64,000 nt of DNA from Acholoe squamosa (lineage: Eukaryota > Annelida > Polychaeta > Phyllodocida > Polynoidae). The notes beneath the pieces are model-generated. The model worked only from the letters and a program-made list of their open reading frames with translations, made no database searches and was not told where the DNA came from. The translations under genes and the position numbers were made by a program. Position 1 is the first letter of the stretch. Every line of letters begins with the position of its first letter. Location of the stretch: the NCBI GenBank assembly GCA_949317995.1, contig OX439046.1, positions 77,726,934-77,790,933 on the forward strand, read 5' to 3'. This document shows positions 13,508-31,852 of this stretch, one piece after another.

Positions 13508-13513
13508 AAGGTT
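13508..13513. repeat. Target site duplication of the Polinton, left
   Basis: AAGGTT directly precedes the first base of the left terminal repeat. The same six bases follow the right terminal repeat at 31847-31852. Six-base duplications are the rule for Polinton integrases. Confidence 0.9.
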
Positions 13514-13947: not shown

Positions 13948-14820
13948 TTAGACACAATATTTACAGATGAAGACAGATTTTCCATTTCCGGGGCGTGCAC
14001 ATATACTACAAAAACATTTTTTGTGTGTGAATTTACTTGCTTGATACCAGCTTTGGCCAGTAAGACTTGTTTTCCATGTGTTGTGGAAACAATAACTGTT
14101 AAGTTTGGCTATGTTAGATATAGCATGCTCGAACAAAGCCTGGGCCAGGAAGTAAGTTTGACTGTTTTTGGGTCCAGGTAAAAGACCAGATAAAAAACCA
14201 TCCTTAAAGTTTACCTCAAAGGAGAAATGATTTTTCACTCCAGGTATACTTAAGGCATGAAGTTCCAGAGAGACCTGCAGACATGTGAAACAAATAGTTT
14301 TAGCAATAGCAGATACTTCCCGTTTACAATTACACTGACAAAACACTCCTACTATGGGATTACATTCTAACTCTTGGAGAGTAAGAGCAAACTTTCTTAC
14401 ACTTCCTAAAGTGTACCTTGTGTAGTGTCTTGGGCAGCCAGGTTCAGTGTGCAATTGATATACTCCTATACACCAATCATGCATTATCAAGTTAACTTTT
14501 TTCACTCGACAATAGTACATGCAGTTTCTGTAGGCGTCCCAAAAAGCTGAAGAGAAATATTTGTACATTTTAACACTAGTTATACAGTGGTCAACAGTGT
14601 CTGGTTCAGCTCCTCTAAAATAACCAATGTTTTCTGCAGGTATTATTTCCCAAAAGAAATTCTCTGAACATCCACATGCTACAGAACTTATATCATTGTC
14701 AGGTGTTATAGAAGAAGCTTGATTATATGAAGCAACACTTTGTAAAACTGGACGCATGTAATAGTCATAAGGTGGAGTTTCTGTGGTTTGCTCCACAAGC
14801 ATAGCTTCTAAACTTTCCAT
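13948..14820 (-). CDS. Cys-rich protein of the Polinton, unknown
   Basis: A 290-residue protein, the leftmost gene, read toward the left end. It contains many Cys pairs: C-G-C near residue 48, C-Q-C-N-C near 165, C-F-T-C near 180, and a C-terminal C-F-C-S-I-C-A-R-P-G...C-K-Y-C that looks like a zinc ribbon or treble clef. There is no transmembrane segment. It lies downstream of the polymerase gene, behind an 81-bp repeat array. I recognise no family. It could be a nucleic-acid-binding or accessory protein. It is not part of the standard Polinton core set. Confidence 0.65.
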   Translation of the reverse strand: MESLEAMLVEQTTETPPYDYYMRPVLQSVASYNQASSITPDNDISSVACGCSENFFWEIIPAENIGYFRGAEPDTVDHCITSVKMYKYFSSAFWDAYRNCMYYCRVKKVNLIMHDWCIGVYQLHTEPGCPRHYTRYTLGSVRKFALTLQELECNPIVGVFCQCNCKREVSAIAKTICFTCLQVSLELHALSIPGVKNHFSFEVNFKDGFLSGLLPGPKNSQTYFLAQALFEHAISNIAKLNSYCFHNTWKTSLTGQSWYQASKFTHKKCFCSICARPGNGKSVFICKYCV

Positions 14821-15548: not shown

Positions 15549-18500
15549 TTATATAGAAAGGGGTAGGGTGCTTACACCGTCTTCACATACTTGTCTCTTT
15601 ATGTACTGATAGGTTAGACCTTGTTTCCTTTGAGAGTAAGTCGTAACGCTGTGGTTTACTACTTTAAATCCTTTGTTGACTACCGTGACAACATTTTCAC
15701 TGTCCAGTACTTCTTTGTACTTGTCAGTGGTCAGGGGGTTTTGTTTTTGAATTACACCTTTGCAACTCATTTTAACGGGCACATTTACTCCTGTGCCTAT
15801 GTAACATTTGGAGTTCAAGGCAGTCATTTCGTCACCTTCCCACTCCACTTTGAATAACCCGGGGGTTCTCTTGTCAAACGCCAGACGGCTCTTACAACAT
15901 GGTTGAGGCAGCCACAGCTCACCCAATACTTTGGTCTGAACATAGGTCTCTCTGTGGTGACTGTTGTCACATGATTCAGAGGGCAACCATTTGTGACGTT
16001 CTCTGAAGAAAGCTTCACGTTTTTCAGGAATAATTACGTCTTCTATTTTCTCTGCACTTAAAGCAAAGTAAAAACTGTCAGTGTCCATTTCACACATTTC
16101 AAAATCTTTCTCGTCTATGTATTCAAGGAGAAAGTCGTAATAGAAAGCCAACATTTTAAGTTTGGCATATTGGTATACCATGAACCCTATTTGAACTGGG
16201 AGATCGTAGGTGATGGAGGTGGGCAAACAGGACAGTTCTACCGTGTTGTCACTTATGTCTTGCACATCTTGCACTGACCAGTGCATGGCCAAACGTCTTG
16301 CCTTAGAGGGGTGAAGATACTTTGTTTGAACAAAGTTTTGTTTGTTGCATATGGTTTTTCCGTATGAACCATTTCCCAAAAGTTTGTACAGATCTGACAA
16401 AATCTTACAGTCTATATTTTCGTCGCCCTTCCTCCTAGCTTTGGTTACTTCGTCCATGAAGGGTAAAAAAGTCTGTTCTGGAGTGTATTCTACGAGAAGG
16501 TGTACTGTCGTAACTACCAAACCTTTTTCCAGGTACCACTTCAAGAGAGGAGTTCCCAACAAAATTCCCTCTGCGTGGTAGCTGCCTATAAGTTGGCGTT
16601 GCGGTTGTTTTAGCTTACCTGCTGCTTCCAGGTAACGTTTCATATGTTCACCTACGTCTTTTTTTCCTACTAAACAGTTTTTGAAAATAGGTGTCATTTC
16701 ACTGAATTTTTCTTTCAAGTGTTCAGGTGTTTCTATGTCTACCTGGATAAGTCCAAAAGTTGTTCCTTTAGAAACCCCTCTCAGTATTTCATCCTGACTT
16801 TTTCTGCCTTGGCACAACAGTCTTTTAATTTCCCATTCACTTTTTGTTTCTCTGCACAAGTTTTCAGTTTTTTCTTTCAACCACATACACTCATACTTTT
16901 CCTCTACTTGGTAACCTAACGATTGAAGATATAGGGTAGTCAAAATGGTATTTTGGTTTTTTTCTTCTAACCATGCCTTTCCATTGGGGTCTCTCAAAAC
17001 TGATTTAGTAAGGTGACATATGTGACCATGCCAGTAGCACCCGTGAAACTGGTATACTTTTTTTGAAGCTGGATCATATCCGTCCACTTTTATTTTCCTT
17101 GAACCCAATACTACTTCCCCGTAGTTGTATTGGTGTAATATCTTGACTTTGTCTGTCACAGTTTTGTATCGCAACCATTCTGTGGCTGAGTAGCTAATTT
17201 GTTGACTGCAAACAGCTTGAAAATCGTTTTCTTTCCTGCGCACCACATAATAACCTGTGCAGTGCTCTTCACCCATGCACTTGAGGTACAAGCTGTTAGC
17301 ATCTACCCCTACTATGTGTCTGCATACTTTGCTTTGTGACCCGTATTTTTTTTGTCTTATTCTTGTTTCTCCACTTTTGTGATGTCTGTGAAAAATAATA
17401 GAGGGACCCCCTACTAAGTTGCGTCTGAGCAAGGAGTGAACATCCTTTTCTTTCTCACCAAAAAGAATGTAAGGAGTGGCATTAGGTGCAGTGTTGTTGA
17501 AAAGAAACTTCAAGGTTAAACCTGGCAAAGTTAAACCGTCTTTGAACATGTCTACCCCACGATCTATAAAAAATTTTGTGTGCTCGTTTATGGCTAAAAC
17601 AAAGGGTTTAACATCCAGGTTGTTGTAATATATCAAGTAGTCCTTCATAGTTTTCATTTTGTTTTCTTTCCAGACCTTCTTACATTCAAGATAATCTTCT
17701 TTGCTTATTCCACCACCCGACAAAGAACTGTAGAAGCAGTGGCGTGGAGGAAGAGCTTTGTTGTTCAGTTTTCTTATGTTGTCCATCCACTCGTAGGGAA
17801 AAAAACCTTTTTCAGCTTTCCCTTTCAGAAAGGCTTTCAGGTAGTTTGCGTAGGAATAACCTGGTGCCAAATAGTTAAACATGTCAAGGAAAAGAAGATG
17901 GTCTGTGTACACTGCTATGTACTTGTTGCATTTTTTTATGGTTTTCATTTCTGTTTTGTCTGTGTCTATAAAAAAAGAATGAAATTCCTTTTTTATCAAA
18001 TTAATGTCATACTTTCCAGAGTTGAAACCTAGAACAGGGACTCTTTCTCTGTAGGTAAGAAGTTTTTCCTTCACTTCAAGAACATGGGAGATTTTTTTTT
18101 GGGGATTTTTTTTGTTCTTTGCTGGAAAAACTTTGCTAGCTTTATGTTCTAGTTCCTTTTGTTTTTCTTCTAGAGAGTCTAGTTCGTCTAAAACATCTCT
18201 AAAATTCTCTTTCACCTGTTCTCCTATCAACTGCCCCAAGTTGTTTATGTGTTCCAACACATTTTTAACCAAAGGATCGTCGTCCCTGTTGGAATTTCTG
18301 ACAAAACACACTGGTTCTGTATGCCCAGGAAAATCAGAAGCTACACTGGCAGAAAGGGGTATGTGAGTTTTTTCTATCACAGTGTTAGCATTTTCTGGGG
18401 ACGAATTTTCAGGTTGGACGAAATAGCTTTCAAAGTCAAAAACAATTTTATAGGGGTATATTTTTTTCTCAGGTGAACAAACTATTCCCAGTTCCTCTAA

Positions 18501-19691
18501 AACTTGAAAAACTGTTTTGGATGGATTGTATGCTCCACCTTTGTACCTGAAGCTGACTTTGGTGCAATCTTTTTTCACCCCATTGTGTTGTTTCAAAAGG
18601 AAGCTACGAGTGAAAACTTTATGACACTTTTCACAGGGGTACATTTTACCATACAGTCCCATGTTAGTTATTAAACTTACATGGTTTCTGTGTAAGTTCA
18701 AGTTCATGATTTTCTTGGATGAACACATGTTTGACCTTATAATTTTAGGTCGACCCTTTCTTTTACCAAAAGAGGGAAGGTAAAAGATTCTTATGTTAAC
18801 TTCAAACATTTTTTCTAACCTGTCTAAATCTCTTATGTTAACGCCCTCAAAAGTCTCCTTGTTCACCCCTGGATAGGCTTCAAGGAAAAGCTCTTGAGTT
18901 TTTTCTAAAGATTCATACAGGAAGAAAGACAGACATCTAAAGAAACACAAGTTGTCCTTGTAAGCCCTTTTGGTTTTAGGGTCTCTGTGAAAGTGTTGCA
19001 TTCCTCTTTGTCTTAAACCTGGTGGAACAGTTTTCATTTTACCTAAAAGATATTCTCCTCCCGTAGCCCTTATCAGTGTGATGTTGGCGTTCACGTTGCC
19101 TATTACACTCCATTTAGTAGAGGGTCTTTGAGTGTCTTCTTTAATGTTGTTTTCTATTAAATCTAAACACTCTGCAAAGTCTTTGTCGTCCCTTATAAAA
19201 ATGTAAGGGTCTCTATGACTTTCACTGTCATAGAACAAAGACGAGTTGTTGGCAGAAGCATGAAAGTACATAACTTTCTCTTCTTCTTCTTCCTCCTTAG
19301 AGGAAGACAACAACCTTCCAAAAGAGACAGCCACTTTGTAAGCCATAACTTGATTTCTATGAATAGAGGTAAGCGCCTCTATTACCTGTTTGGCTCCCAA
19401 GTCTTTGTTGAAACTTGTCATTCTGACGTTGAAAATGGACTGAAGCTTACCAAGCACAGCCAAACCTGAAGCTATGGACTTGAAGTTGTCACGGTAACTG
19501 CTTTTATGCAAAGAATTTTTTTCTATTTCTTTTGGAAGTTCTAAGCTGTCGGAAAAAGATTCTCTTCTACAAGAATCTGAGTTACATAAAGTTTTTCCAC
19601 TGTTTTCTACAGTTACCAAACGTGGAGGTCTAGGGGTGTTACACATTGGACAGTTGACGGTGTAAAGTTGTTTTACCTTTTTGGGCGGCAT
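15549..19691 (-). CDS. Protein-primed DNA polymerase B (Polinton pPolB)
   Basis: A 1380-residue protein that would copy the element from protein-primed ends. Visible parts in order: an N-terminal C-P-M-C...C-N-S-D-S-C zinc ribbon; D-N-L-C-F-F-R-C (about 250), reminiscent of an OTU-like fold; a C2H2-like finger C-E-K-C...H (about 355); exonuclease motifs V-F-D-F-E-S (about 417), G-F-N-S-G-K-Y-D (about 558) and Y-N-N-L-D (about 692); polymerase A motif D-A-N-S-L-Y (about 798); an inserted H-G-C-Y-W-H-G-H block (about 885); motif B L-L-G-N-G-S-Y-G-K (about 1108); and motif C M-D-T-D-S (about 1205). The length and motif set fit Polinton polymerases. Long tracts before exonuclease I fit a terminal-protein or regulatory region, which is inferred. 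Confidence 0.97.
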   Translation of the reverse strand: MPPKKVKQLYTVNCPMCNTPRPPRLVTVENSGKTLCNSDSCRRESFSDSLELPKEIEKNSLHKSSYRDNFKSIASGLAVLGKLQSIFNVRMTSFNKDLGAKQVIEALTSIHRNQVMAYKVAVSFGRLLSSSKEEEEEEKVMYFHASANNSSLFYDSESHRDPYIFIRDDKDFAECLDLIENNIKEDTQRPSTKWSVIGNVNANITLIRATGGEYLLGKMKTVPPGLRQRGMQHFHRDPKTKRAYKDNLCFFRCLSFFLYESLEKTQELFLEAYPGVNKETFEGVNIRDLDRLEKMFEVNIRIFYLPSFGKRKGRPKIIRSNMCSSKKIMNLNLHRNHVSLITNMGLYGKMYPCEKCHKVFTRSFLLKQHNGVKKDCTKVSFRYKGGAYNPSKTVFQVLEELGIVCSPEKKIYPYKIVFDFESYFVQPENSSPENANTVIEKTHIPLSASVASDFPGHTEPVCFVRNSNRDDDPLVKNVLEHINNLGQLIGEQVKENFRDVLDELDSLEEKQKELEHKASKVFPAKNKKNPQKKISHVLEVKEKLLTYRERVPVLGFNSGKYDINLIKKEFHSFFIDTDKTEMKTIKKCNKYIAVYTDHLLFLDMFNYLAPGYSYANYLKAFLKGKAEKGFFPYEWMDNIRKLNNKALPPRHCFYSSLSGGGISKEDYLECKKVWKENKMKTMKDYLIYYNNLDVKPFVLAINEHTKFFIDRGVDMFKDGLTLPGLTLKFLFNNTAPNATPYILFGEKEKDVHSLLRRNLVGGPSIIFHRHHKSGETRIRQKKYGSQSKVCRHIVGVDANSLYLKCMGEEHCTGYYVVRRKENDFQAVCSQQISYSATEWLRYKTVTDKVKILHQYNYGEVVLGSRKIKVDGYDPASKKVYQFHGCYWHGHICHLTKSVLRDPNGKAWLEEKNQNTILTTLYLQSLGYQVEEKYECMWLKEKTENLCRETKSEWEIKRLLCQGRKSQDEILRGVSKGTTFGLIQVDIETPEHLKEKFSEMTPIFKNCLVGKKDVGEHMKRYLEAAGKLKQPQRQLIGSYHAEGILLGTPLLKWYLEKGLVVTTVHLLVEYTPEQTFLPFMDEVTKARRKGDENIDCKILSDLYKLLGNGSYGKTICNKQNFVQTKYLHPSKARRLAMHWSVQDVQDISDNTVELSCLPTSITYDLPVQIGFMVYQYAKLKMLAFYYDFLLEYIDEKDFEMCEMDTDSFYFALSAEKIEDVIIPEKREAFFRERHKWLPSESCDNSHHRETYVQTKVLGELWLPQPCCKSRLAFDKRTPGLFKVEWEGDEMTALNSKCYIGTGVNVPVKMSCKGVIQKQNPLTTDKYKEVLDSENVVTVVNKGFKVVNHSVTTYSQRKQGLTYQYIKRQVCEDGVSTLPLSI

Positions 19692-19923: not shown

Positions 19924-21327
19924 TTACCCAGAGTAGAAATCGGTCGTTTCGTCTAGGAAGGGACCAACTCGTGATTTTATGTCCTCCAGAATGAAGGGGG
20001 ACACAGTGTGTCCGCAGTGTGTGGCTGAAGGGGGCATTCTGAAGCTGGAAGACACCGAGGCATTCATTTCCTCCACGTAGCTGGTTGTTCCTATGTGAAC
20101 TTTAGGAGTTCCCTTGTACAAGTTTACCAGGACCATAGCCCGGCCTCCACTGGGGTCGGTGCAGTCTTGGTTCAAGGACAACAAAAGATTATCCACCTTC
20201 CTCTCTCCAAGGGCAGCTAGGCGGTGTAACTCCTTGTACTTTCCTAGGATGCACTCTATCTGGTCCACTAAGTTCCTGAATTCACGCGCCTCTAGGTTCA
20301 AGCACCGCTCGTAAGGTTTGTCCAGGTAGGTTCTCAAGCATACTCCCCTGATGCTAGGTTCCCTGTATATTTCTATGCAGGCGTTGTTATCCCCTTCCGG
20401 ATAAAAAACCTGGTTGGGGGCAGGTGACTTTTCTTGGAAACCAAATCGAGCAGGCCACTTTTTTACCACCAAAGGCACTGACCTAAAGCCCACAAGCTTG
20501 CTGGAAGAACTGGGGACAGTTCCCTCCCCAAACTTTTGCCTGTGTGACTTGTCTTTAGGAGAAGGAACACCTGGGACAGAACCAATTGGCTCGGCACCAT
20601 AGGATGAAGTCGCTGAGGAATCTGAAGCAGGGGTAGAGACAGGGGTTTTCTTGTGGTAGGCGCGCTTCTGTCTTTTTTTCTTAGGCTCCCCTTCTTTCTC
20701 ACTGGAACAGTTTCTTTTTTCCGGCGGGCTTTTAAGAAGCAGCTCCTCTACTGGAACCGGGAGAGAGTACAGAGGAGAAGGGCCGGTTAAATCTATAACC
20801 TCTACCTGCGAATACCCCCCGCGGCGAGCAGGTGAAGGTGTCCCTTGTGTTAAGTCCACCACTTCTATGGGTTTAACTGCCGGTGATGAGGTTGTAAGGT
20901 CTATAACCTTAATTGGACTGACCTGGGGAGAAGGTTCCTCCGGAGTCACGGGTGAGTAAGAGGCGGACGTAGGTGTTTCAGTGGGGGGTTGGTAGTTCAA
21001 AGGTGCCGGGGGATTGATGTATTCCCTGATGTCAAAATCGCCGTCGCCAGCTTCCTGAGGAGAGCGATCCCGGACGCGATCCAGGAAATCAGTGATTTCG
21101 CCATGAAGAGCTGCAAGAGCGGCTTCCTGTTCTCCTGCATCAGGCACTTCAGTTGGAAGCCGAGCAGGAGTTGCAGGTGGTTTATCAGGTGAGGCTGGAG
21201 AGGTAGGAGGAGGGGCGATGCCCGACGCCTTTTCCACTGTCTGTTTAGAAGTAGTAAAAGTTAGTGGAGCCAGTTTTTTAGCTCCTCCTCTCCTGACACT
21301 AAGTCCCGTCTTCATGCGACCAGGCAT
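19924..21327 (-). CDS. Pro/Ser-rich protein with PC4-like C-terminal domain
   Basis: The frame is open to 21396, but the first ATG is at 21327, giving 467 residues starting M-P-G-R-M-K-T-G. The first 250 residues are low complexity (Pro, Ser, Thr, Glu). They contain three repeats of the type I-x-V-[IV]-D-L-T, each preceded by P, and end in a Lys-rich nuclear-localisation-like cluster K-K-K-R-Q-K-R. The C-terminal 150 residues are folded in style. The order A-C-I-E-I-Y-R-E...C-L-N-L-E-A-R-E-F-R-N-L-V-D-Q-I resembles the single-stranded-DNA-binding domain of PC4/Sub1. The I-D-L-T repeats also resemble SUMO-interacting motifs (V/I-D-L-T). Both readings are inference. It sits just upstream of the polymerase, on the same strand. 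Confidence 0.7.
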   Translation of the reverse strand: MPGRMKTGLSVRRGGAKKLAPLTFTTSKQTVEKASGIAPPPTSPASPDKPPATPARLPTEVPDAGEQEAALAALHGEITDFLDRVRDRSPQEAGDGDFDIREYINPPAPLNYQPPTETPTSASYSPVTPEEPSPQVSPIKVIDLTTSSPAVKPIEVVDLTQGTPSPARRGGYSQVEVIDLTGPSPLYSLPVPVEELLLKSPPEKRNCSSEKEGEPKKKRQKRAYHKKTPVSTPASDSSATSSYGAEPIGSVPGVPSPKDKSHRQKFGEGTVPSSSSKLVGFRSVPLVVKKWPARFGFQEKSPAPNQVFYPEGDNNACIEIYREPSIRGVCLRTYLDKPYERCLNLEAREFRNLVDQIECILGKYKELHRLAALGERKVDNLLLSLNQDCTDPSGGRAMVLVNLYKGTPKVHIGTTSYVEEMNASVSSSFRMPPSATHCGHTVSPFILEDIKSRVGPFLDETTDFYSG

Positions 21328-21725: not shown

Positions 21726-22382
21726 ATGGCTAACTTTTGTCCTTTGCCTTTGTCTTTGACCGTAGGTCACAAAAGGCGTCAGGAGGTGTTTATTTCAGAC
21801 ATCAGGAGGGGTGTAGAAGAAGGTAAGGTGTGGGCTGTGTGGAAATTCTGTCCTGAAAATTTGAACAGGGATCTTTACATCCCTCCTAACTGTAACTTCA
21901 AACAATGCTTTTTGCACAACCAAACCACTGCATTGGTTCCTGGTGGACCCTCTGTGAAAAAACTTATTTCAGAAAATGGGGAAAGTGTTTTTTCAGGTGT
22001 TCTTTTGGGACATGGTGCCATGGTACACTTAATGTCTAGACATTCCATTTCCTCTGGAAGTTCAAAGAAATTCATTTCAGACAGGCAAAAACCCTTTTTT
22101 CTAAGGGATCAACCTTTGGGTGGAGGGCCTGGTAATTCAGTTTTCATCGATTCTACTATGGTGAAGGCTTTAATTAAAGCCACTTTACTTCACCCAGACA
22201 AAATTACACACTCTTTAGGTTCAAAAATTTTCTATGAAAGAGGATTCAGGACAGAGATTGGCCACAATTACCATGGATGCTGTCATGTTGTGAGAGTTAT
22301 TACTGAAATAACTGCCTCCCATGAAAAAGGTCAGCTGAAGGTGGTAACAGCCTACCCCGTATCTAATTTTTGGTCCTCCTAA
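21726..22382 (+). CDS. Polinton cargo protein, possible EndoU-like fold
   Basis: A 218-residue protein starting M-A-N-F-C-P-L and followed immediately by AATAAA. There is no signal peptide or membrane helix. The last third contains G-H-N-Y-H-G-C, V-V-R-V and K-V-V-T-A-Y-P-V. That arrangement of His residues followed by a strand ending T-[AF]-[YF]-P recalls bacterial EndoU-type ribonuclease domains, and another His-rich patch (V-H-L-M-S-R-H-S) lies upstream. The similarity was noticed by eye and is weak. The protein could equally be an unrelated family. It is first in the rightward block, ahead of the death-fold genes. Confidence 0.65.
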   Translation: MANFCPLPLSLTVGHKRRQEVFISDIRRGVEEGKVWAVWKFCPENLNRDLYIPPNCNFKQCFLHNQTTALVPGGPSVKKLISENGESVFSGVLLGHGAMVHLMSRHSISSGSSKKFISDRQKPFFLRDQPLGGGPGNSVFIDSTMVKALIKATLLHPDKITHSLGSKIFYERGFRTEIGHNYHGCCHVVRVITEITASHEKGQLKVVTAYPVSNFWSS

Positions 22383-22618: not shown

Positions 22619-23242
22619 ATGTCGCGTTACTCCCTGCAGCGTGTATTAGAACAACGTCACCCCGACGACACTCAAGTTCTGACATATGTGAGGGAAAGAA
22701 ATGAAATTATATGTTGCTCTTCTATTTGTTTCAGGTACGTGTGCAAATACTTGAAAGAATGTGTTCTTCACCGGAAAAAATTATACTTAGTTTTTTCTTC
22801 AGTGCAATCAAGTTTTACATCCAAAGACAGAAAAACCTTGAGGAAAATGGTTTTGAGTCATAACTTGTCGAAATTTTCAGCGGTGGAAACCTTGGGTTAT
22901 GCCCTGAAGCATGGAAGAAAGGGAAAAGGCCCACTGAAAAACCCCTTCCATGTGGAAGCATTGAAAGCGGCAGAAGAGCATCACGCCAAAGAAAATCCCC
23001 GCCTACTTAACCAGCGTCTTCATTTCTTCATGTCTATTTTGGAACTTCTAGCTGAGTGCTTAGAAACCAAAACTTTGTTTTCCTCCTGCCCCATATTTCA
23101 CATCCCATCATCGTCCCTGGATCGTTTCAGTGTAGAGGAGAAAGAAAAAGTTTGGTTTTATCTGGCTATGTGGTGCACCCAGCTTATCTCCCTTACTCAC
23201 TGTTTTCACCACAATCAGCTCGCTTTACACTCAACGTCATAA
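22619..23242 (+). CDS. Polinton cargo protein, possible death-effector-like fold
   Basis: A 207-residue, probably all-helical protein. Around residues 53-105 the pattern L-Y-L-V-F-S-S-V-Q-S-S-F-T-S-K-D...L-R-K-M, then A-V-E-T-L-G-Y-A-L, resembles the helix 1-2 and helix 4-5 region of death-effector domains, such as the F-A-D-D type L-x-x-V-S-S-x-L-S-S-x-E-L. The C-terminal half is hydrophobic helix text without a named match. The next gene is a clear death-domain protein, which makes a link to cell-death signalling more plausible. Domain call is tentative; the existence of the gene is better supported. Confidence 0.6.
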   Translation: MSRYSLQRVLEQRHPDDTQVLTYVRERNEIICCSSICFRYVCKYLKECVLHRKKLYLVFSSVQSSFTSKDRKTLRKMVLSHNLSKFSAVETLGYALKHGRKGKGPLKNPFHVEALKAAEEHHAKENPRLLNQRLHFFMSILELLAECLETKTLFSSCPIFHIPSSSLDRFSVEEKEKVWFYLAMWCTQLISLTHCFHHNQLALHSTS

Positions 23243-23330
23243 CAAATTTAAACGAACGAAGAACGATGTAACATGCTTACCTAAAGAGGGGGAAGGGAAC
23301 GGGAGAGATATATAGAATAGGATAGAATAG

Positions 23331-23585
23331 GGTAGGATAAAATAGGGTAGGGTAGGGTAGGGTAGGGTAGGGTAGGGTAGGAAAGGGTGGGGTTGGGTTT
23401 AAAAAACTATGGGGTGGGGGGGTGGGGGCACCCCTCAAGTATGGGGGGTTTGGGGCTTGTTGGCCCGGGCTGGCCGCCCAAAATAACCCACCTAACCCAC
23501 CCACCCACCTACCCACCCACCTAAACCACCTACCCACCTACCCTACCCTACCCTACCCTACCCTACCCTACCCTACCCTACCCTA
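23331..23585. repeat. Inverted GGGTA / CCCTA pentamer tracts
   Basis: A run of GGGTA pentamers (about 23331-23391) is mirrored by a run of CCCTA pentamers (about 23541-23585). About 150 bp of C-rich and G-rich text, including ACCCACCC words, lies between them. The two arms can pair into a long hairpin, and the G-rich arm suits G-quadruplex formation. The tract lies between two cargo genes of the Polinton. The minus-strand open frame across it is a low-complexity artefact. Confidence 0.85.
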
Positions 23586-23677
23586 TATAAGTTAACTGTA
23601 TGCTTTCTAGCCTGTCATAACCTGCCTGCCTTCCTACCTGCCTGCCTTACTTGCTCAACACTTTTTATTTGGACGCT

Positions 23678-24307
23678 ATGGAGTTTCACCTTTCGGACGA
23701 GTTGTTATTCAAGGTCAGTGAAAAAATATCTGAAAAAGACTACCCTCGATTAGGAGTTTACTTAGGACTTAGACTAAGTTTAATGGATTACATGGAAAAA
23801 ATACCGTCTCTTCGTTCTATGGGGAGAGAAATGCTTATTTCATGGAGTAGAAAGAACGTGCGTTGCAAGTGGATGGTATTGAGACATGCATTAAGTGACA
23901 TAGGTCGTTACGATCTAACTGATTATTGTAGATGGTACATGGGATATTACAACGTAGTGGACCATTGTGAAATTCCTCCAGAACAGTGGAAAGTTGATAC
24001 TTTGTTCGTCAACCTGGCAGACAAGTTCGAAAAGCTTGACTGGAGGAAACTGGGAACTCAACTTGGAATGAGCGACCACGAGCTTAACCTGATATCCACC
24101 CCTGTTCCAGGGAAAAAAGGAGTCACAAATCCTGTGTTCGAAGTTCTGATGGTTTGGAAATATAGAGAAATATCTCATCCAAGCTGCCTAATAGCCAGTC
24201 TATACAACATGGGACTTTCTAATGTAGCTCTTTACGTGGAAGGTTTGAACAAGGGTTCTACTGGTTTAAAAGAGGACGAGGTTGCTCCTTTGGTCACTTT
24301 GGTCTAA
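23678..24307 (+). CDS. Tandem death-domain protein carried by the Polinton
   Basis: The first ATG is at 23678 (upstream open codons start only at TTG), giving 209 residues: M-E-F-H-L-S-D-E-L-L. Two death domains fill the protein. The first (about residues 6-84) has the hallmark end M-L-I-S-W-S-R...L-R-H-A-L-S-D-I-G-R-Y-D-L. The second (about 105-195) has L-A-D-K-F-E-K-L-D-W-R-K-L-G-T-Q-L-G-M-S-D-H-E-L...V-L-M-V-W...L-I-A-S-L-Y-N-M-G-L-S-N-V-A. No kinase, caspase or DNA-binding part is attached. In animals such modules assemble signalling platforms (FADD, MyD88, Pelle type), so an adaptor-like decoy acting on host apoptosis or innate signalling is the natural inference. It is not a Polinton core gene and was probably captured from an animal genome. 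Confidence 0.85.
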   Translation: MEFHLSDELLFKVSEKISEKDYPRLGVYLGLRLSLMDYMEKIPSLRSMGREMLISWSRKNVRCKWMVLRHALSDIGRYDLTDYCRWYMGYYNVVDHCEIPPEQWKVDTLFVNLADKFEKLDWRKLGTQLGMSDHELNLISTPVPGKKGVTNPVFEVLMVWKYREISHPSCLIASLYNMGLSNVALYVEGLNKGSTGLKEDEVAPLVTLV

Positions 24308-24320
24308 GATATCGTTCAAC

Positions 24321-25010
24321 ATGGATCACAAGGAAAAGGAGATCATTTTTGACCCACGTCTACAAAGCCCCTTCACAATGATCATAGCTGGACCTACTTC
24401 TTGTGGGAAAAGTCAACTTGTTTTCAAGTTGATTAAAGGTGTAGACGAGCTTGTTACTCCAAAAATACACGACATATACTACTGCTACAGTCAATGGCAA
24501 GATGGATTCGACGAAATGGTGAAGTTGGGGGTTAAGTTTAACAAAGGTCTTCTTTCAGAAGACTTTTTGTTCGAGGATGAAAGAGACGTGACTAAACATG
24601 GACTGGTCGTAATAGACGATCTCATGGATCCCGAGTACGTTCCCACCATAATGAAACTTTTCACTGTGGGCTCTCACCATCGCAGTTTAAGTGTAATTTT
24701 TGTTACTCAAAACTTGTTTTTCAACAATCCTGCCTTCAGAACCTTGAGCTTAAATGCACACTACCTAGTTGTTTTTAAAAACCCTAGAGACATGAGTCAG
24801 ATAGGGCACATCAGCAAACAGGCCTTTCCAGGACAGAAATCCTTTTTGACGGAGGTATATAACTCAGAAACCAAAGACAAGCATTCATACATCCTATTGG
24901 ACTTTAAGCAGAGCACACCTAACGAGCTTAGGGTAAGAAACAGCATAACAACTCCTTGGAACACCTTGGTTTTCATTCCTCGAGCTTCACCTTCGAAAAG
25001 AAAAAGATAG
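24321..25010 (+). CDS. Packaging ATPase (FtsK/HerA, A32-like)
   Basis: The frame is open from 24282, but the ATG at 24321 (M-D-H-K-E-K) avoids overlap with the previous gene, giving 229 residues. The Walker A loop A-G-P-T-S-C-G-K-S is at residues 23-31 and the Walker B strand G-L-V-V-I-D-D-L-M at about 94-102. An F-V-T-Q-N sensor-like segment follows near residue 137. The protein would pump the element's DNA into a capsid. Motifs and length fit the family in Polintons, adintoviruses and related viruses. It starts 13 bp after the death-domain gene and ends one base before the next gene. Confidence 0.95.
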   Translation: MDHKEKEIIFDPRLQSPFTMIIAGPTSCGKSQLVFKLIKGVDELVTPKIHDIYYCYSQWQDGFDEMVKLGVKFNKGLLSEDFLFEDERDVTKHGLVVIDDLMDPEYVPTIMKLFTVGSHHRSLSVIFVTQNLFFNNPAFRTLSLNAHYLVVFKNPRDMSQIGHISKQAFPGQKSFLTEVYNSETKDKHSYILLDFKQSTPNELRVRNSITTPWNTLVFIPRASPSKRKR

Positions 25011-25011
25011 A

Positions 25012-25377
25012 ATGGTGACCAAAAGATCTCCTTCTGGAGGAAAATTTAAAACAATTAGGAAACATTACCACTTGTTGAAACACATATCCAAGTGTTCCTC
25101 GGCAGAGTGTTCCCACATTATCAAAGGTCTCAGCGATGAGGTCATTAGGTTGATGAGTCAAATTTGCGTCAACGTAATGAACAAAAACCTGTTGCGTAAC
25201 GAGTCCGACGCAGTCAAACGTTTATCACCCTACAAGAAAGAACTCAAGTCAGTCACAAGGCACAAGGCTACCGTTAAGCAGAAGAGGAAAACCTTTGAGC
25301 AAAAGGGAGGATTTTTGGGAACCATTTTGGGCCTCGCCTTACCCCTGATAACAGGTCTCATAGGAGCACGTCGATAA
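25012..25377 (+). CDS. Small basic Polinton protein with hydrophobic C-terminal helix
   Basis: A 121-residue, Lys/Arg-rich protein. Core phrases H-Y-H-L-L-K-H-I, S-D-E-V-I, I-C-V-N-V-M-N and L-S-P-Y-K-K-E-L are followed by K-R-K-T-F-E-Q-K-G-G-F-L and a hydrophobic stretch L-G-L-A-L-P-L-I-T-G-L-I-G. From memory, a small protein with this layout recurs in animal Polintons next to the packaging ATPase; its role is not known to me. The basic body and hydrophobic end suit DNA condensation or membrane contact. It follows the ATPase after one base. Confidence 0.75.
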   Translation: MVTKRSPSGGKFKTIRKHYHLLKHISKCSSAECSHIIKGLSDEVIRLMSQICVNVMNKNLLRNESDAVKRLSPYKKELKSVTRHKATVKQKRKTFEQKGGFLGTILGLALPLITGLIGARR

Positions 25378-25384
25378 AAAAATC

Positions 25385-26341
25385 ATGTCTTATTCAAGGA
25401 TGGCCCTCGTAAGGGCGGATCTTGTTCCCCGAGAAAAAAAATCTTCTTTTGTTAGTACTTCCTCTCCTCCCCAGCCTGGACCTAGTGTTCAAGACCAGTA
25501 CTACAGCACTCAACTTTTAAGAGAAGGTTTAACTCCTGATTCCAGCCTGGTTCAAGTCCTGAACCACCTTCAGAGTAAAGCACATGAGGTGCTTAACTCT
25601 CCTAACCTCAAACTGAAGGAAAAGTTAAGGCAGTACAATCAACTTATGATAAAGTCGGGAATTTTAACTAAAAAAGCCAAGGCCTTAGGACAACGTAGGG
25701 AAGGTCCCTATTTTGGTCGAGCAGTAGGACAAGGTCCTGCAGGAGCAGCAGCAGCAGCAGCTGGGGGTGTAAACAATTCTTTAGAAGACACCGACGACGG
25801 CGACGATGATGCTGACCACACTTTCACAGAGACTAGAGACGATCCACCACTTCCTGATGATTCAGACGGAGACAGTGTAGACGAGTTCAAAGGGGAGGAA
25901 GGTTTTAAACCTCGTGCAAGAGACAACACAGAGGGTATGGACGCCGACATAAAAGAAAGAATACCTGCAAGTTACAGAACGACTGCAAAAAATCTATACA
26001 GAGAATTATCTCGTCACGGAAGTCAAATTTTGAATTGGAACAGAGATGGAGAAATATATGTTAACGGGGAACGTGTGCCTGGAACTGACATAACAGATTT
26101 GTTAGCTTTTGCTGCCCGACCAAAGTCTTTGAAAAAGGACCAACCTAAAGGAAGCCAGGTTTTCATGAGAGCAGTTAAAAGGCTGAACCCCACCTTAAAA
26201 TTTGTCAAAAACAAGTCGGCTTTTGCAGGGCACAGTCCTTCCTTTGCTGCCAGTCCCTTGAAAAGAGCTTCCCCTATAAAGAAGAGGAAAGTAAGTCAAA
26301 AAGGAACTGGACGTAAGTTTATATGGCGCACAAGGCTTTGA
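25385..26341 (+). CDS. Conserved Polinton protein (PY-like)
   Basis: A 318-residue protein. An N-terminal helical part (L-N-H-L-Q-S-K-A-H-E-V-L) is followed by an Ala-rich and acidic middle (D-D-G-D-D-D-A-D near residue 140). The folded block is R-I-P-A-S-Y-R-T-T-A-K-N-L-Y...I-L-N-W-N-R-D-G-E-I-Y-V-N-G-E-R-V-P-G-T-D-I (about residues 193-233), with a basic C terminus. The block W-N-x-x-G-E...Y-x-G-x-x-V-P-G-x-x-I is one I associate with an unnamed protein common in animal Polintons. A virion role is inferred from its place among capsid-type genes. Its last 19 bases overlap the integrase gene. Confidence 0.75.
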   Translation: MSYSRMALVRADLVPREKKSSFVSTSSPPQPGPSVQDQYYSTQLLREGLTPDSSLVQVLNHLQSKAHEVLNSPNLKLKEKLRQYNQLMIKSGILTKKAKALGQRREGPYFGRAVGQGPAGAAAAAAGGVNNSLEDTDDGDDDADHTFTETRDDPPLPDDSDGDSVDEFKGEEGFKPRARDNTEGMDADIKERIPASYRTTAKNLYRELSRHGSQILNWNRDGEIYVNGERVPGTDITDLLAFAARPKSLKKDQPKGSQVFMRAVKRLNPTLKFVKNKSAFAGHSPSFAASPLKRASPIKKRKVSQKGTGRKFIWRTRL

Positions 26342-27402
26342 AAAAAGATGTGCTCAGGTTTTACACAGATCCTAAACAACCTGGAAGTTTCACCAGCGTT
26401 TCTAAACTTCAACGTCATCACTTCAAGAAAACAAAGAAAAAAAACATAGAACAAGCTTTGGAAGATGTAGACGCTTACACCAGACACAAACCTTACAAGA
26501 GAAGATTTCCAAGAAGAAAAACACAAACATGGGGCATAGACAAACAGTGGCAACTTGACCTCATAGACATGCGAGAATTTTCAAAGGAAAACAAAGGATA
26601 CCAGTACATTCTAGCGGGAATAGATGTTTTTTCAAGGTATGGTTTTGGACAACCTGTGAAAAGTAAGAGAGCTGATGACGTGACAGAGGCTTTCAAAAAA
26701 ATGAGCAAAGAAAGAAAACCTCAACAAATTCAAACTGACAAGGGCAAAGAGTTTGTCAACAAAATTTTCAAAAAACACTGTGAAGATCAAAAAATCAATT
26801 TTTTCACAGGAGAGAACGACGACGTGAAGTGTGCCTTAGCCGAAAGATTCAACTCTACCTTACAAGGAAAAATGTGGAGATGTTTTTCTCATTTCAATAA
26901 CTACAAATGGGTTGACTTGCTGCCCGACTTGGTTAAGTCCTACAATTTGACTTACCACAAAGCCTTAGGAGCTGCCCCTTCAGACATAAATAAAGACAAC
27001 TCTGAAGTCTTGTTCTACAGGTTGTACGATCAACCTCAAAAGAAAAAAGTTCCTGTTCTTCAGTTGAAGAGAAAAAATCAAGTGCGAATGTTGAAAACAA
27101 AGAAAACATTTAACAGAGGGTACGAACCTAACTGGACTGAGGAAATATACACAGTCGACAACATTTCTCCCAAAGGGTACCACCTGAAAGATCTCCTTGG
27201 AGAAGAGATAAAAGGAAGCTTCTACGAACCTGAGGTCCAGAAGGTGCAAGTCCGTCACGGAAGACGCTACAACATAGAAAAAATAGTAAAATACAGAGGA
27301 AAAGGCAAGAAAAGAGAAGCCTTGATCAAGTGGAAGGGTTATGGAGACAAGTTTAACTCTTGGGAACCTGTCAAAAACATAAACAAATGGCGTTTACCTT
27401 AA
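26323..27402 (+). CDS. Polinton integrase (DDE) with chromodomain
   Basis: A 359-residue retroviral-type integrase. Catalytic residues sit in D-L-I-D-M (about residue 80), Q-T-D-K-G-K-E-F (about 140) and A-L-A-E-R-F-N-S (about 173), with 34 residues between the second Asp and the Glu, close to the usual 35. The C-terminal 50 residues form a chromodomain (Y-N-I-E-K-I-V...A-L-I-K-W-K-G-Y...N-S-W-E-P), often used to steer insertion to marked chromatin. It would cut and join the AG...CT ends and make the six-base target duplication seen here. Overlaps both neighbouring genes by a few bases. Confidence 0.96.
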   Translation: MAHKALKKDVLRFYTDPKQPGSFTSVSKLQRHHFKKTKKKNIEQALEDVDAYTRHKPYKRRFPRRKTQTWGIDKQWQLDLIDMREFSKENKGYQYILAGIDVFSRYGFGQPVKSKRADDVTEAFKKMSKERKPQQIQTDKGKEFVNKIFKKHCEDQKINFFTGENDDVKCALAERFNSTLQGKMWRCFSHFNNYKWVDLLPDLVKSYNLTYHKALGAAPSDINKDNSEVLFYRLYDQPQKKKVPVLQLKRKNQVRMLKTKKTFNRGYEPNWTEEIYTVDNISPKGYHLKDLLGEEIKGSFYEPEVQKVQVRHGRRYNIEKIVKYRGKGKKREALIKWKGYGDKFNSWEPVKNINKWRLP

Positions 27403-28724
27403 CTTTACCTAGTAACTCATCTATGAACGTTTTTCCTGACAACACTTTAACTAGTTACAATACAATTTTGGCAGAATACATTAACTCTCCTACTCAGTTA
27501 GAGTGTGCTCTTCAAGAAATAACCTGTCCTACCACGTGGTACAACGTCAAAGAAGAACCCATCCTCTTGGTACAGGGAGAAAACGACCTGACAAACAACC
27601 TCCGCTCTGTAGTAGCTTTATTGAACAAACGCAGAAGAGAATTTTTTCCTCTGGAAAAACCAGGAGCCCATAGTGTCTTCAGTAGAGCTTCAAGCTCTAC
27701 ATCAAATTTATCAGCCCAATCTGCTTTGAAGAGAGGAGTAAAAATAACAAAAAACCTACGTCATGTCAACCCTGTGGGATCGACTGAAACCATTCCTCCT
27801 GCTGGTCCTGCAAGTGAAAGTCCACCAACTCCTGCTGCTGCGACTGAGACGCCATCTGGAGGATTCACTTCTAACCAACCCACGCCAGAGAAGGAGGAAA
27901 AGGAAGAGGAGGAGGCTGAGGGGGAGCGTGACACGGCAGGCAGAGAGAAAAGGGAAATATCGTCGGCTGTGGCTGAAGTGATGTCTATGGATGACAGGGA
28001 AAAAAGGTCTCTTTCTTTTTTTGAAGAAAAGGCCGTCTTCACAGACTCTGCTAATGTTTCTCCGCTCTCTCCCAGTCAGTTACAGGCTGTGAAAATATGT
28101 ACACGCTTCAAGGAAATTAGCAGATACCTGTCTAAGTATTACTTCAAGGAAGGTAGTATCTACAATATGTTTGCCTTAGAAGGTGTGAACCTGGAAAGCA
28201 ACTCAGAGTTGATAGGATACTTGAACAGGACCATAAATAAACTACAGAGCATGTTGGTGAGAAAACTAAGAAACTACAGGAAAAACAACAAAGCCACCGT
28301 GTTTCACTACAACAAATACACAATGAAAAGTGTAGTTTCCTTGCCTCCTGGTGTGGTCATGCAACTCCCAGAAAACTTAGGGAAACAATTAGGTTTTGAC
28401 GGAAGTGTTTTCCTAAGTGGAAAGACACAAAGCCCCTACGTGGTAGACCTTCAGTTCAAAAGTCGATGTGCTTTCGTGTACTCTGACATAGTCAAGCACA
28501 GTCTTGTGGGTGATTCTAAAGCACCCCTTCTCAGGCAAATCAACATAAATCGCTACAACGGTGACATGCAGACCATAAGTTTCCAGAACTTGATATATCT
28601 GCCAGTCACTAAAACCACCTTCAGACAGATAGGGATATACTTAAGAGACAAGACTGGGGAACCTATACCATTTGAAAGCGGATCAGTGTCGGTGGTACTT
28701 GCCTTCAGACCTCTTCAAGGATAG
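27387..28724 (+). CDS. Minor capsid (penton-like) protein
   Basis: The first ATG at 27387 gives M-A-F-T-L-T-L-P-S-N-S-S (445 residues) and overlaps the integrase by 16 bases. The start L-P-S-N-S-S-M...F-P-D-N-T-L, then L-E-C-A-L-Q-E-I...T-W-Y-N-V, matches the beginning I know for the Polinton penton-like protein. A low-complexity Pro/Glu/Thr tract (about residues 130-200) is inserted before a beta-rich second half. It would form the capsid vertices. Family call from memory of the motif; the fold cannot be checked here. Confidence 0.8.
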   Translation: MAFTLTLPSNSSMNVFPDNTLTSYNTILAEYINSPTQLECALQEITCPTTWYNVKEEPILLVQGENDLTNNLRSVVALLNKRRREFFPLEKPGAHSVFSRASSSTSNLSAQSALKRGVKITKNLRHVNPVGSTETIPPAGPASESPPTPAAATETPSGGFTSNQPTPEKEEKEEEEAEGERDTAGREKREISSAVAEVMSMDDREKRSLSFFEEKAVFTDSANVSPLSPSQLQAVKICTRFKEISRYLSKYYFKEGSIYNMFALEGVNLESNSELIGYLNRTINKLQSMLVRKLRNYRKNNKATVFHYNKYTMKSVVSLPPGVVMQLPENLGKQLGFDGSVFLSGKTQSPYVVDLQFKSRCAFVYSDIVKHSLVGDSKAPLLRQININRYNGDMQTISFQNLIYLPVTKTTFRQIGIYLRDKTGEPIPFESGSVSVVLAFRPLQG

Positions 28725-28736: not shown

Positions 28737-29207
28737 ATGCTTCACTACTATGGAACACCTCCATACCTGGCCCCTAGGGGTCAGTACGCTGAATACTACA
28801 GAAAATCACAGTTTGGGAACGGTGCTTTACCAGCGTACGGTGGCAGGGGCAGACAAAGAGGGCACAGACTTGGTTCGTTAATAGGTGGTTTACTGAGAGG
28901 AGCTGTTCCCCTCTTAAGTAAAATAGGACGCTCGGCTGCCAAATCTGCAGGCAAAGCCTTGCTTACTACAGGAGCTGGAGTCTTGTCCGACGTGGTAACA
29001 GGAAAAGGCTTCAAGAAAAGTGTAGTTAGGAGAAGTAAAGCTACAGGGAAGAACTTACTCAAAAGGGCTGCTTCTTCTGCTCAAGGATACATAAAAGGTA
29101 CATCTGAACCTCCTCCAGTCAAACGACGAGCAACCGGCAAGCGCGGAGGACGTAAGGGGCAACGCGGCAGAGGCAGAGGACAAGCTAGAGGAAGGACCTT
29201 GTTCTAG
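28737..29207 (+). CDS. pVI-like minor virion protein
   Basis: A 156-residue, strongly basic protein. A Tyr/Gly/Pro-rich start (Y-Y-G-T-P-P-Y) leads to the typical block H-R-L-G-S-L-I-G-G-L-L-R-G-A-V-P-L-L (about residues 43-60), an amphipathic helix, then Ala/Lys/Gly repeats and an Arg/Gly-rich tail R-G-G-R-K-G-Q-R-G-R-G-R-G. Adenovirus pVI and the Polinton counterpart have this layout and are thought to disrupt membranes or bind DNA inside the capsid. It lies between the penton-like gene and the major capsid gene, as in related elements. Confidence 0.82.
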   Translation: MLHYYGTPPYLAPRGQYAEYYRKSQFGNGALPAYGGRGRQRGHRLGSLIGGLLRGAVPLLSKIGRSAAKSAGKALLTTGAGVLSDVVTGKGFKKSVVRRSKATGKNLLKRAASSAQGYIKGTSEPPPVKRRATGKRGGRKGQRGRGRGQARGRTLF

Positions 29208-29209: not shown

Positions 29210-30526
29210 ATGAGTCTCCTTCATCCCAAGGGTCAGGTATGTGCAGTAGGTGAACTAGACCTACACGCCTTGCCTGTCACTCAAAAGGACATATTAAAAT
29301 GTCAAAAAATAACCAAAACTACCAACAATGCCCTGACTCCACACACTGAATCATTTGACTTCACCTTCGAACCAAGCAACCTGTACACAGACCTCTCAGA
29401 AACTGAGCTGTACATGGAACTGGAAGCCGTGGCGGCAGACGGAACAACTCACCTTGCCGTAGGCATAGAAGCTGCTCCAGTCAACAACTTGGCACACGCT
29501 CTCTTTGCTTCCTGCCAGTTGCTAATAAATGGGGAGAAAGTCACCGGCAACAATGAAGACTATGGTCTCAAGGCCTACATTTTGGACACAATTTGTTGCA
29601 ACAAAGAAGACAAAGAGACTCGGTTGAAAGGGTGTCAAAAGTACATGAAAGACACCTGTGGTCACATGGAAGCCAGAGCGGGCGAAAATGCTGGATGGAC
29701 GGCACGGAGAGCAGAGTTCAGTGCCCGCAACAAGCATGCCTTAGTAATGAAGCCGCACCTGGATTTAATTAAACAGTGCAAGGTGCTGCCTCCGAACTGT
29801 GAAATCAAGTTCATATTCGAAAAAAATCAGCCCAATTACTACATGATGCAAGCAGCCGATCAAAACTACTGGGTCAAAATCACCAAAGCTGAAATGACAC
29901 TTCTCCAAAAATGTGTCGACGACGAGGTGGTGAAAACTCACGTCAGCAGTGTCAGGAATCCACATTGGGGCCCTTTCAACTATCACATAGCCAGGTGTAA
30001 AGTAACTAAACACACTTTGGACGGCGGCTCACAAGACTACAGTTGGACTCAACCTGACACTACTCAGATCCCCACCAGGATAGTCTTGTGTATGATAAAG
30101 GAAACAGCAGCTGCTGGGACTAAGACAGAAAATCCTTTCAACTGCAGGCATTTCAACGTGAAGGAAATATGTGTGAGATATGACGATCAAAAGTTTGAGT
30201 TGAAGACCGACTTCGAAACAGGCAACTGCATCAGAGCCTACAGTCAAATGTTCATAGACAGTGGGCTGTCGGCTTTGGGGCAAGACTGTGGCATAACTTT
30301 GGAAGATTTCAAAGATGGATATTCCTTCTTTGTTTTCGACCTGACCCCAGACAGAGCACCTGAAGACAGTCGTATAAATCTCATCAAGCAAGGAAAGCTG
30401 GGCATTTCCCTTAGGTTTGCCGCCCCGACTACTCACGCCATATCTGCCGTCTTGTGTTCCTTCTACGACAACAACATCCAACTAACGGCTGACTGTCTTC
30501 CTGTCACAGACTACCACATGAACTGA
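29210..30526 (+). CDS. Major capsid protein (double jelly-roll)
   Basis: A 438-residue protein beginning two bases after the pVI-like gene. The opening M-S-L-L-H-P-K-G...V-G-E-L-D-L, F-D-F-T-F-E-P-S-N-L-Y-T-D-L, and the second half with F-V-F-D-L-T-P-D and G-K-L-G-I-S-L-R-F are typical of the Polinton hexon-like capsid protein. Text is beta-rich throughout with no membrane helix. Trimers of such proteins tile icosahedral shells. Position directly before the protease gene also fits the family. Confidence 0.93.
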   Translation: MSLLHPKGQVCAVGELDLHALPVTQKDILKCQKITKTTNNALTPHTESFDFTFEPSNLYTDLSETELYMELEAVAADGTTHLAVGIEAAPVNNLAHALFASCQLLINGEKVTGNNEDYGLKAYILDTICCNKEDKETRLKGCQKYMKDTCGHMEARAGENAGWTARRAEFSARNKHALVMKPHLDLIKQCKVLPPNCEIKFIFEKNQPNYYMMQAADQNYWVKITKAEMTLLQKCVDDEVVKTHVSSVRNPHWGPFNYHIARCKVTKHTLDGGSQDYSWTQPDTTQIPTRIVLCMIKETAAAGTKTENPFNCRHFNVKEICVRYDDQKFELKTDFETGNCIRAYSQMFIDSGLSALGQDCGITLEDFKDGYSFFVFDLTPDRAPEDSRINLIKQGKLGISLRFAAPTTHAISAVLCSFYDNNIQLTADCLPVTDYHMN

Positions 30527-30555: not shown

Positions 30556-30999
30556 GTGCACTGGGAAACCATCCACACACAAGGCGGTTCTACCTGGGAA
30601 CTTTTGCCAGTAATCAATGTCCTAAAAAAACCAATTCCCTCTACATGTTTCGTCAGTAACACAGATCCAAGCTCTAAACCTGGTCAGCACTGGGTGGCAT
30701 TTTACGTTTCTCATAACGGGAATGTATTCTACTTTGATCCCTATGGCCTACCTCCGTTTACTATATATCACCAGAGGTTCATGCAAAAGTCGTCAGATGG
30801 TCACGGGTCGTTCAGCAGAAAACAAGTGCAAAACTTTTACGCTAAAACGTGTGGAGCCCACTGCATTAACTTCCTCATAGAAACATGTCGGACCAAGGAT
30901 CCACACCACACTGTGAAAAGGTTTTCTCAGGTCCCCTTCAACTTAATGGACAAAATAGTCAGGCCCTTCCTGAGAAAGAGAGAGAAGAAGAGGCAATGA
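30556..30999 (+). CDS. Adenain-like cysteine protease
   Basis: The coordinates are those of the open frame and the true start is uncertain. The C48/C5-type triad is visible: His in P-G-Q-H-W-V-A-F, Asp in F-Y-F-D-P-Y-G, and Cys in T-C-G-A-H-C-I-N-F. A Gln-containing phrase R-K-Q-V-Q-N precedes the Cys. In adenoviruses and Polintons this enzyme matures the virion proteins. It sits between the major capsid gene and the last small gene, and its stop overlaps the next start (ATGA). Confidence 0.88.
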   Translation: MHWETIHTQGGSTWELLPVINVLKKPIPSTCFVSNTDPSSKPGQHWVAFYVSHNGNVFYFDPYGLPPFTIYHQRFMQKSSDGHGSFSRKQVQNFYAKTCGAHCINFLIETCRTKDPHHTVKRFSQVPFNLMDKIVRPFLRKREKKRQ

Positions 31000-31310
31000 A
31001 TTTCGAGATGAGTCCAGAAGAAGTAGCAGTCAAAGCAGACGTGAGCAATCTTTTGGTGAAAGGAAAAGTTAAACGTGAACTGGATGTGATAGACGGGCTT
31101 CAGAGCACGGCGGAAGTAATAGACAAGATTCTCATCATCATGGCCGAGTTAATGGACAAAGTGGTAGCCCTGGAGGAGAACGACATAGGAAGAAAGGCCT
31201 TGAAGGATTTAATGGAGAGAATGCGGGCCTTAGAGGACCGTAGTCAAAGTCCTACTCCAGCCAAGACCGGGTGCAGTTGGTACTGCAACAAGAATTCATT
31301 TTCCATATAA
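30996..31310 (+). CDS. Small coiled-coil protein at the right end of the Polinton
   Basis: A 104-residue protein starting M-N-F-E-M-S-P-E-E-V, using an ATG that overlaps the protease stop. The middle (about residues 25-80) is heptad-like with L, I and V spaced for a coiled coil (V-I-D-K-I-L-I-I-M-A-E-L-M-D-K-V). The end is short and Cys-containing (C-S-W-Y-C). A frame open further upstream overlaps the protease and is not used. An AATAAA follows at about 31388. No family recognised. Confidence 0.65.
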   Translation: MNFEMSPEEVAVKADVSNLLVKGKVKRELDVIDGLQSTAEVIDKILIIMAELMDKVVALEENDIGRKALKDLMERMRALEDRSQSPTPAKTGCSWYCNKNSFSI

Positions 31311-31452: not shown

Positions 31453-31846
31453 AGTGAGTCATAAGTATTGCGTAAATTCATAGGAACATTGCATCAGAAA
31501 ATGAGTCATGGTTATTGTGTAATTTGTTTCAAGGATTGCACAATACACCCTCATACGTAGGTCATACGTTTTTGCAAGTAGGTTAGTAGGTCACTTCCGG
31601 TTTGTAAGTAGGTCAGCTCTAGGTATTGCACAATTCTTTTAATTTATGCAACTAGGTCAGGTCACTAGGTCAAATGGAATCCAGCTCTCTGATTGGTCGA
31701 AAAAACTAGGTCATGACCTTATGACGTCACTTCCTGTCAAATCCAGCCCTCTGATTGGTTGAAACTAGGTCACTTCCGGTCTACCAGTAGGTCATGACCT
31801 AGTTAGTAGCTAATCCATTGCGCTCAGTTTGCATGTATATACTACT
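31453..31846. repeat. Right terminal inverted repeat of the Polinton
   Basis: Reverse complement of the left terminal repeat. It ends ...GCATGTATATACTACT, followed by the AAGGTT duplication. It carries the same CCAAT-type boxes, TGACGTCA and TGACCTA words. The inner part has an extra GCAATA/GACTCAT-type segment relative to the left side. Confidence 0.92.
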
Positions 31847-31852
31847 AAGGTT
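31847..31852. repeat. Target site duplication of the Polinton, right
   Basis: AAGGTT, identical to 13508-13513. It defines the outer border of the element on this side. Confidence 0.9.

Follow-up and report, generated by a model that had tools for sequence, protein, structure and literature searches.

A complete Polinton/Maverick in the genome of the polychaete Acholoe squamosa carries an intact gene whose product is made of two death domains, in which no further domain was found. Death domains are signalling modules of animals that relay cell-death and immune signals, and by binding one another they build helical assemblies through which receptors are connected to effectors. A Polinton with such a protein suggests tampering with the alarm system of the host, without proving so. 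The reading that we will follow here is that of a captured host death-domain adaptor, which would serve as a decoy in the death-domain assemblies of the host, and we regard the chances of this reading as evenly balanced. All positions are those of the window, that is, the whole stretch of 64,000 nucleotides that was analysed (contig OX439046.1, positions 77,726,934 to 77,790,933), and the features are collected in the table below.

The original prediction had placed the gene inside a Polinton, and the boundaries of the element bear this out. The element spans positions 13514-31846 (18,333 bp) and is structurally complete, its ends, inverted repeats and target-site duplication (TSD) having all been checked. 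It has (AGT)2//(ACT)2 ends and a matching 6-bp TSD, and the inverted-repeat search of the window gave arms at 13512-13846 and 31514-31848 that are 97% complementary. In the passages of PMC8097293 that describe them, intact vertebrate Mavericks have a 6-bp TSD, (AGT)2//(ACT)2 as the commonest ends and a length of 12.7-24.6 kb; the ends, TSD and length of the element match this description. The gene content is also that of a Polinton/Maverick, with a protein-primed PolB (recognised via its relatives) and an rve integrase (recognised via PF00665). As for the A32-like ATPase, the adenovirus-type protease and the double jelly-roll capsid protein of Polintons, the Pfam matches of the first two are under the curated cut-offs, and the capsid ORF has no match. 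The definition of adintoviruses in the relevant passage of PMC11071296 asks for an rve integrase with a C-terminal chromodomain, a PolB with an N-terminal OTU-like domain and also a Hexon recognisable by BLASTp against adintovirus hexons. The integrase does have its C-terminal chromodomain (PF00385 at residues 316-355, E 9.2e-9), and an OTU-like stretch (DNLCFFRCLS...HVSLI) was spotted by eye in PolB, for which the Pfam OTU family gave no match at E<=0.1. The element is Polinton/adintovirus-like.

No polymerase family came up for the window PolB itself in the Pfam search at E<=0.1, and PF03175 is carried by several of its relatives among the 120 matches listed of 453. The nearest of these 120 is 70% identical over residues 780-1330, which is the part that was searched. 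A quick midpoint-rooted tree was built from 36 rows, namely the window PolB and 35 relatives out of the 120 listed. It places the window PolB in a clade of 11 rows (SH-aLRT 100), which leaves out the rows named as mollusc, echinoderm, cnidarian and lancelet. A tandem array at 15099-15474 (81-bp unit, 4.6 copies, 97% matches) lies between the two left minus-strand genes.

Table. Features of the element in the window, with the evidence for each (positions of the window; strand given where the feature has one)
Feature	Positions	Strand	Evidence or remark
Left target-site duplication AAGGTT	13508..13513	.	same 6 bp as 31847-31852
Left terminal inverted repeat, first bases AGTAGT	13514..13846	+	arms 97% complementary, ~333 bp
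290-aa cysteine-rich ORF	13948..14820	-	Pfam: none at E<=10
Polymerase (PolB)	15549..19691	-	453 matches at E<=1e-3, 120 of them listed
Protein with three [VI][VI]DLT motifs and a basic stretch	19924..21327	-	ATG at 21327
218-aa accessory ORF	21726..22382	+	Pfam: none at E<=10; PDB sequences: no match
207-aa accessory ORF, weak DUF5662 (PF18907)	22619..23242	+	E 3.3e-4, 20.8 bits, cut-off 27
Inverted repeat rich in GGGTA/TACCC units	23321..23607	.	71-nt arms, 82% complementary, 145 nt apart
TATATA, candidate TATA box	23584..23589	+	94 nt upstream of the ATG of the death-domain gene
Tandem death-domain gene, 209 aa, intact ORF	23678..24307	+	Pfam Death, two stretches
Death domain 1, residues 12-82	23711..23923	+	Pfam 22.4-22.6 bits, right at the cut-off of 22.6; model and fold match
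Death domain 2, residues 113-184	24014..24229	+	Pfam 29.7-30.4 bits; phmmer FADD death domain
Packaging ATPase	24321..25010	+	weak Pox_A32 (E 0.0063) and Adeno_IVa2 (E 0.006), both under cut-off
121-aa ORF in the Maverick PM position	25012..25377	+	by order only, against the layout passages of PMC8097293
318-aa ORF in the Maverick PZ position	25385..26341	+	by order only, against the layout passages of PMC8097293
Integrase (rve) with C-terminal chromodomain	26323..27402	+	PF00665 E 1.3e-10, PF00385 E 9.2e-9
445-aa ORF, likely minor capsid protein	27387..28724	+	by position only; no family
156-aa basic ORF in the PW position	28737..29207	+	by position only
438-aa ORF, likely major capsid protein	29210..30526	+	by position only
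Adenovirus-type cysteine protease	30556..30999	+	Peptidase_C5 E 4.2e-4, 20.5 bits, cut-off 21.3
141-aa ORF overlapping the protease	30885..31310	+	ORF list
Right terminal inverted repeat, last bases ACTACT	31514..31846	-	pairs with the left arm
Right target-site duplication AAGGTT	31847..31852	.	perfect 6-bp match to the left copy

The gene of interest ends 13 bp before the ATG of the ATPase at 24321, exactly as had been predicted. To appreciate its place, one can compare the element with the vertebrate Mavericks, whose genes, in the layout passages of PMC8097293, form two modules on different strands. The first contains the polymerase, the ATPase and PZ, with PM between the ATPase and PZ, and the second contains the integrase, the minor capsid protein, PW, the major capsid protein and the protease. 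The ORFs 3' of the ATPase (121 aa, 318 aa, integrase, 445 aa, 156 aa, 438 aa and protease) follow this Maverick list by order. The minus strand carries the polymerase and two further ORFs and the plus strand all the rest, which is not the usual two-module layout of vertebrates. This departure concerns the usual vertebrate arrangement only and has no bearing on the Polinton status of the element, because departing layouts are also reported in the same passages of PMC8097293. The three plus-strand ORFs between 21726 and 24307, the last of which is the death-domain gene, have no core-gene counterpart by order. By this reckoning, they form an accessory block which adjoins the point where the two strands diverge and is not in the flanks. 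Judged by gene order alone, the death-domain gene does not belong to the conserved Maverick genes; the original prediction likewise knew of no standard Polinton gene of this kind. Its reading as a universal Polinton structural protein was rejected, as the core genes have other candidate ORFs by order (PM, PZ, PW and both capsid proteins by order only). It does resemble the vertebrate Maverick PM, as presented in PMC8097293, in being an ORF of uncertain function near the ATPase, but PM stands between the ATPase and PZ, whereas the death-domain gene precedes the ATPase and the ORFs at 25012 and 25385 follow it.

The other genes of the element call for a few remarks. Counted along the longer ORF, the motifs of the 19924-21327 protein fall at residues 164, 179 and 200, and its basic stretch is KKKRQKR; we take the motifs to resemble SUMO-interacting motifs, and the protein could be a second host-directed one. 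In the accessory block, the 218-aa ORF gave only a chance-level row of unknown function in PHROGs (E 0.3), and its C-terminus, GQLKVVTAYPV, resembles EndoU-type RNases by eye; the 207-aa ORF gave one chance-level row among PDB sequences (E 0.5). In the ATPase, GPTSCGKS is presumably the P-loop and LVVIDD a Walker-B-like motif, and a tblastn search against phages gave no match. The putative major capsid ORF of 438 aa had no match in Pfam, NCBIfam, PHROGs or PDB sequences. The protease ORF is listed from a GTG, and its true start is unsure. Elsewhere in the window, the ORFs 1-816 and 45904-46407 (PADLVFGVVGMDPELPCH...) are alike and look by eye like the ends of retroelement integrases (no Pfam family at E<=0.1). 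Three further ORFs (55018-55428, 55724-56230 and 62777-63208) are related through a common CLVL..EH...WHQV.(S/T)H.L.TFHP....SECDIQ pattern and resemble repeated exons of a host gene family, with no Pfam family above cut-off. The ORF 53253-53705 looked death-domain-like by eye, and Pfam gave no match for it at E<=1.

The 209-residue protein matches a single Pfam-A family, Death (PF00531), with 48.7 bits (E 8.5e-13, gathering cut-off 22.6). This match falls in two stretches, and no DED, CARD or any family other than Death was found in the full protein at E<=10, so the prediction of two death domains and little else stands. DED is equally absent from either half at E<=10. Profile searches without a death-fold hit for either half would have refuted the prediction, but both halves match Death, although the first does no more than reach the cut-off. 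Searched by itself, the first half has DUF3362 as a further row (E 0.14), under its cut-off. The two domains are about 19% identical to one another. Against PDB sequences, phmmer with domain 2 gave FADD death domains at a weak E of 0.0044, and domain 1 alone gave no death-domain match, its rows being two chance-level glutathione transferase zeta/maleylacetoacetate isomerase entries (E 1.5). A profile of both domains gave FADD first, weakly (0.0025), then THOC1 (0.019), PIDD, TNFR1 and IRAK3 (0.33), and its last row is the unrelated Nck-associated protein 1 (E 0.36). NCBIfam and PHROGs returned chance-level rows only (E 0.16 and 0.25). Apoptosis is too narrow a word for this evidence, because death domains function in innate immune signalling and in further complexes as well, and the two-domain profile also touches THOC1, PIDD, TNFR1 and IRAK3.

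Structure prediction had been suggested as a check. A domain-1 model of moderate confidence matches death folds in Foldseek; all the E-values are above 0.1, and the predicted fold is not independent of domain 2, which was the only other row of the alignment. The death-fold rows matched by this model include vFLIP chains (3cl3, 7pdj and MC159). A full-length model made without an alignment was set aside (pLDDT 41). Among viral structures, the domain-1 model had no match better than E 1.5. One viral protein annotated as death domain-containing, from Marseillevirus LCMAC202 (BFVD A0A481YZ84), reaches a TM of 0.61 to the model of domain 1, but it has 658 aa, belongs to a giant virus and has a Foldseek E of 3.9.

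Two known systems are particularly relevant for comparison. The first is FADD, an animal adaptor made of a DED and a death domain (its full-length PDB chain has 208 residues). The Polinton protein is like FADD in its size of about 209 residues, in its two death-fold modules and in its C-terminal death domain, and FADD provides its best PDB sequence matches. It differs in that its N-terminal module scores as Death and not as DED (PF01335), in that FADD death domains are only about 20% identical to domain 1 in most rows, and in that it is encoded by a mobile element. The reading as a FADD orthologue was rejected, as no DED was found in the protein at E<=10. The second system is that of the vFLIPs, which are likewise virus-encoded pairs of death-fold modules, but tandem DEDs, whereas the Polinton protein has death domains instead. 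It is possible, though we would lean against it, that the Polinton protein represents a separate viral death-fold class of animal Polinton-type viruses, a DD-DD adaptor for capping or re-routing the death-domain filaments of the host, which would be the death-domain counterpart of the DED-DED vFLIPs.

Under the decoy reading, a two-module protein of probable host origin would ride as accessory cargo upstream of the packaging ATPase and may enter FADD-, MyD88- or Imd-type assemblies by homotypic contacts. As it lacks a DED, kinase, caspase or TIR partner domain, it would there be a decoy or cap and interrupt signalling between receptor and effector. This reading is put forward because two death domains without an effector module can join assemblies without passing the signal on. 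In its favour are the completeness of the element, the match to Death alone in two stretches, the FADD rows for domain 2 and for the two-domain profile, the death-fold matches of the domain-1 model, the TATATA upstream of the gene, its place in the accessory block and the presumed anti-apoptotic cargo of mammal-associated adintoviruses. Several points speak against it. Death domains also serve outside cell death, as in THOC1 and the ankyrins; the E-values against PDB sequences are weak and domain 1 is at the Pfam cut-off; and a tandem protein could equally activate as inhibit. Indeed, the protein might nucleate host death-domain filaments and turn on NF-kB/survival or death signalling for the benefit of the element, in the way that the vFLIP of KSHV activates IKK (the title of PDB entry 3cl3 agrees). 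Two modules per chain could raise avidity and seed assembly, and the match of the domain-1 model to vFLIP chains is in line with such an agonist. We nevertheless find this unlikely, as that fold match is common to the whole superfamily, the Pfam DED is absent and no IKK-binding feature is known here.

As to expression, a TATATA is found 94 nt upstream of the start of the death-domain gene. TATA-like hexamers are found 40-120 nt upstream of 5 of the 15 ORF starts, against 0.76 at random (fraction reaching 5, 0.0004), 40-100 nt upstream of 4 of 15 (0.57 at random; fraction 0.0024) and 40-60 nt upstream of 3 of 15 (0.20 at random; fraction 0.0008); these fractions come from 5000 random draws and are guides only, since the ranges were picked after the positions had been seen. 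The death-domain gene would be driven by its own TATA-type promoter, perhaps in one transcript with the ATPase. Indeed, the ATPase has no TATA-like hexamer within 200 nt upstream and thus may share the death-domain transcript. The GGGTA/TACCC inverted repeat directly upstream of the gene is telomere-like. Such a shared transcript, together with the 13-bp spacing, would also suit a role inside the element, in which the death domains scaffold replication, packaging or RNA handling and are unrelated to host signalling, and the contact of the two-domain profile with the death domain of THOC1 (E 0.019) points the same way. Yet all the conserved Maverick genes in the layout passages of PMC8097293 have other candidate ORFs here, five of them by order only, and death domains are generally animal signalling modules. 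We consider such an internal role improbable.

Scored against the codon usage of six core genes, the death-domain gene fits only when read in its own frame (+0.170 per codon), and on this analysis a chance ORF was rejected. The same score is 0.053 to 0.164 for the other seven non-core ORFs, each below the death-domain gene. The fit means either that the gene has long been settled in the element or that the compositions match by happenstance. It also bears on whether the gene could be a mere passenger without a role, picked up accidentally in this copy as a retrocopy or a piece of a host gene. The gene is indeed known from one copy in one element. But the ORF is complete, its codon score is the higher one in each of the seven comparisons, it is tightly packed with the ATPase, and both domains are far from any protein reachable by database search, so we deem a passenger very unlikely.

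The search for relatives returned little. In the protein database, the whole 209-aa protein had 130 word-sharing candidates, none at E<=0.01, and its second half had 6, none at E<=10; this search needs shared 5-residue words and is estimated to often miss relatives at about 35% identity. As the protein database yielded no homologue, capture and selective retention are presumptive, which also counts against the decoy, as does the chance that the element is a dead copy. Five scans of viral contigs gave no relative, three of them for the polymerase (two by alignments and one by a motif that does occur in the window). The collection of viral contigs thus appears to be without a close relative of the element, and hence to give no test of the distribution of the gene.

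Cargo directed against cell death is already known in large mobile elements: according to a passage of PMC11071296, anti-apoptotic homologues and/or candidate oncogenes seem to be encoded by most adintoviruses associated with mammals, and giant planarian retrotransposons carry apoptosis-related domains, BIR and BCL2-like (PMC6431247). The former belong to a related class of elements and their anti-apoptotic homologues have the same presumed purpose; the genes are not named in the relevant passage, and the main text of PMC11071296 has zero counts of 'death', 'Bcl', 'caspase' and 'CARD'. In the literature searched, no paper joins a Polinton or adintovirus with a death domain, a mention in the founding adintovirus paper (Starrett 2021) being possible. 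Within that literature, a free-standing death-domain pair in a Polinton appears to be new. Since anti-apoptotic adintovirus cargo is already in print in that passage, the present case extends a known principle and does not found a new one.

If the decoy reading is true, its consequences would reach beyond this gene. Viruses use DED, CARD and pyrin proteins, and a death-domain pair would join them. Polinton particles have not been observed so far (abstract of PMC8097293), and a dedicated protein against death-domain signalling would be evidence that there is a genuine infection cycle, exposed to the defences of the host. With it, one could also test which pathways of the host restrict these elements.
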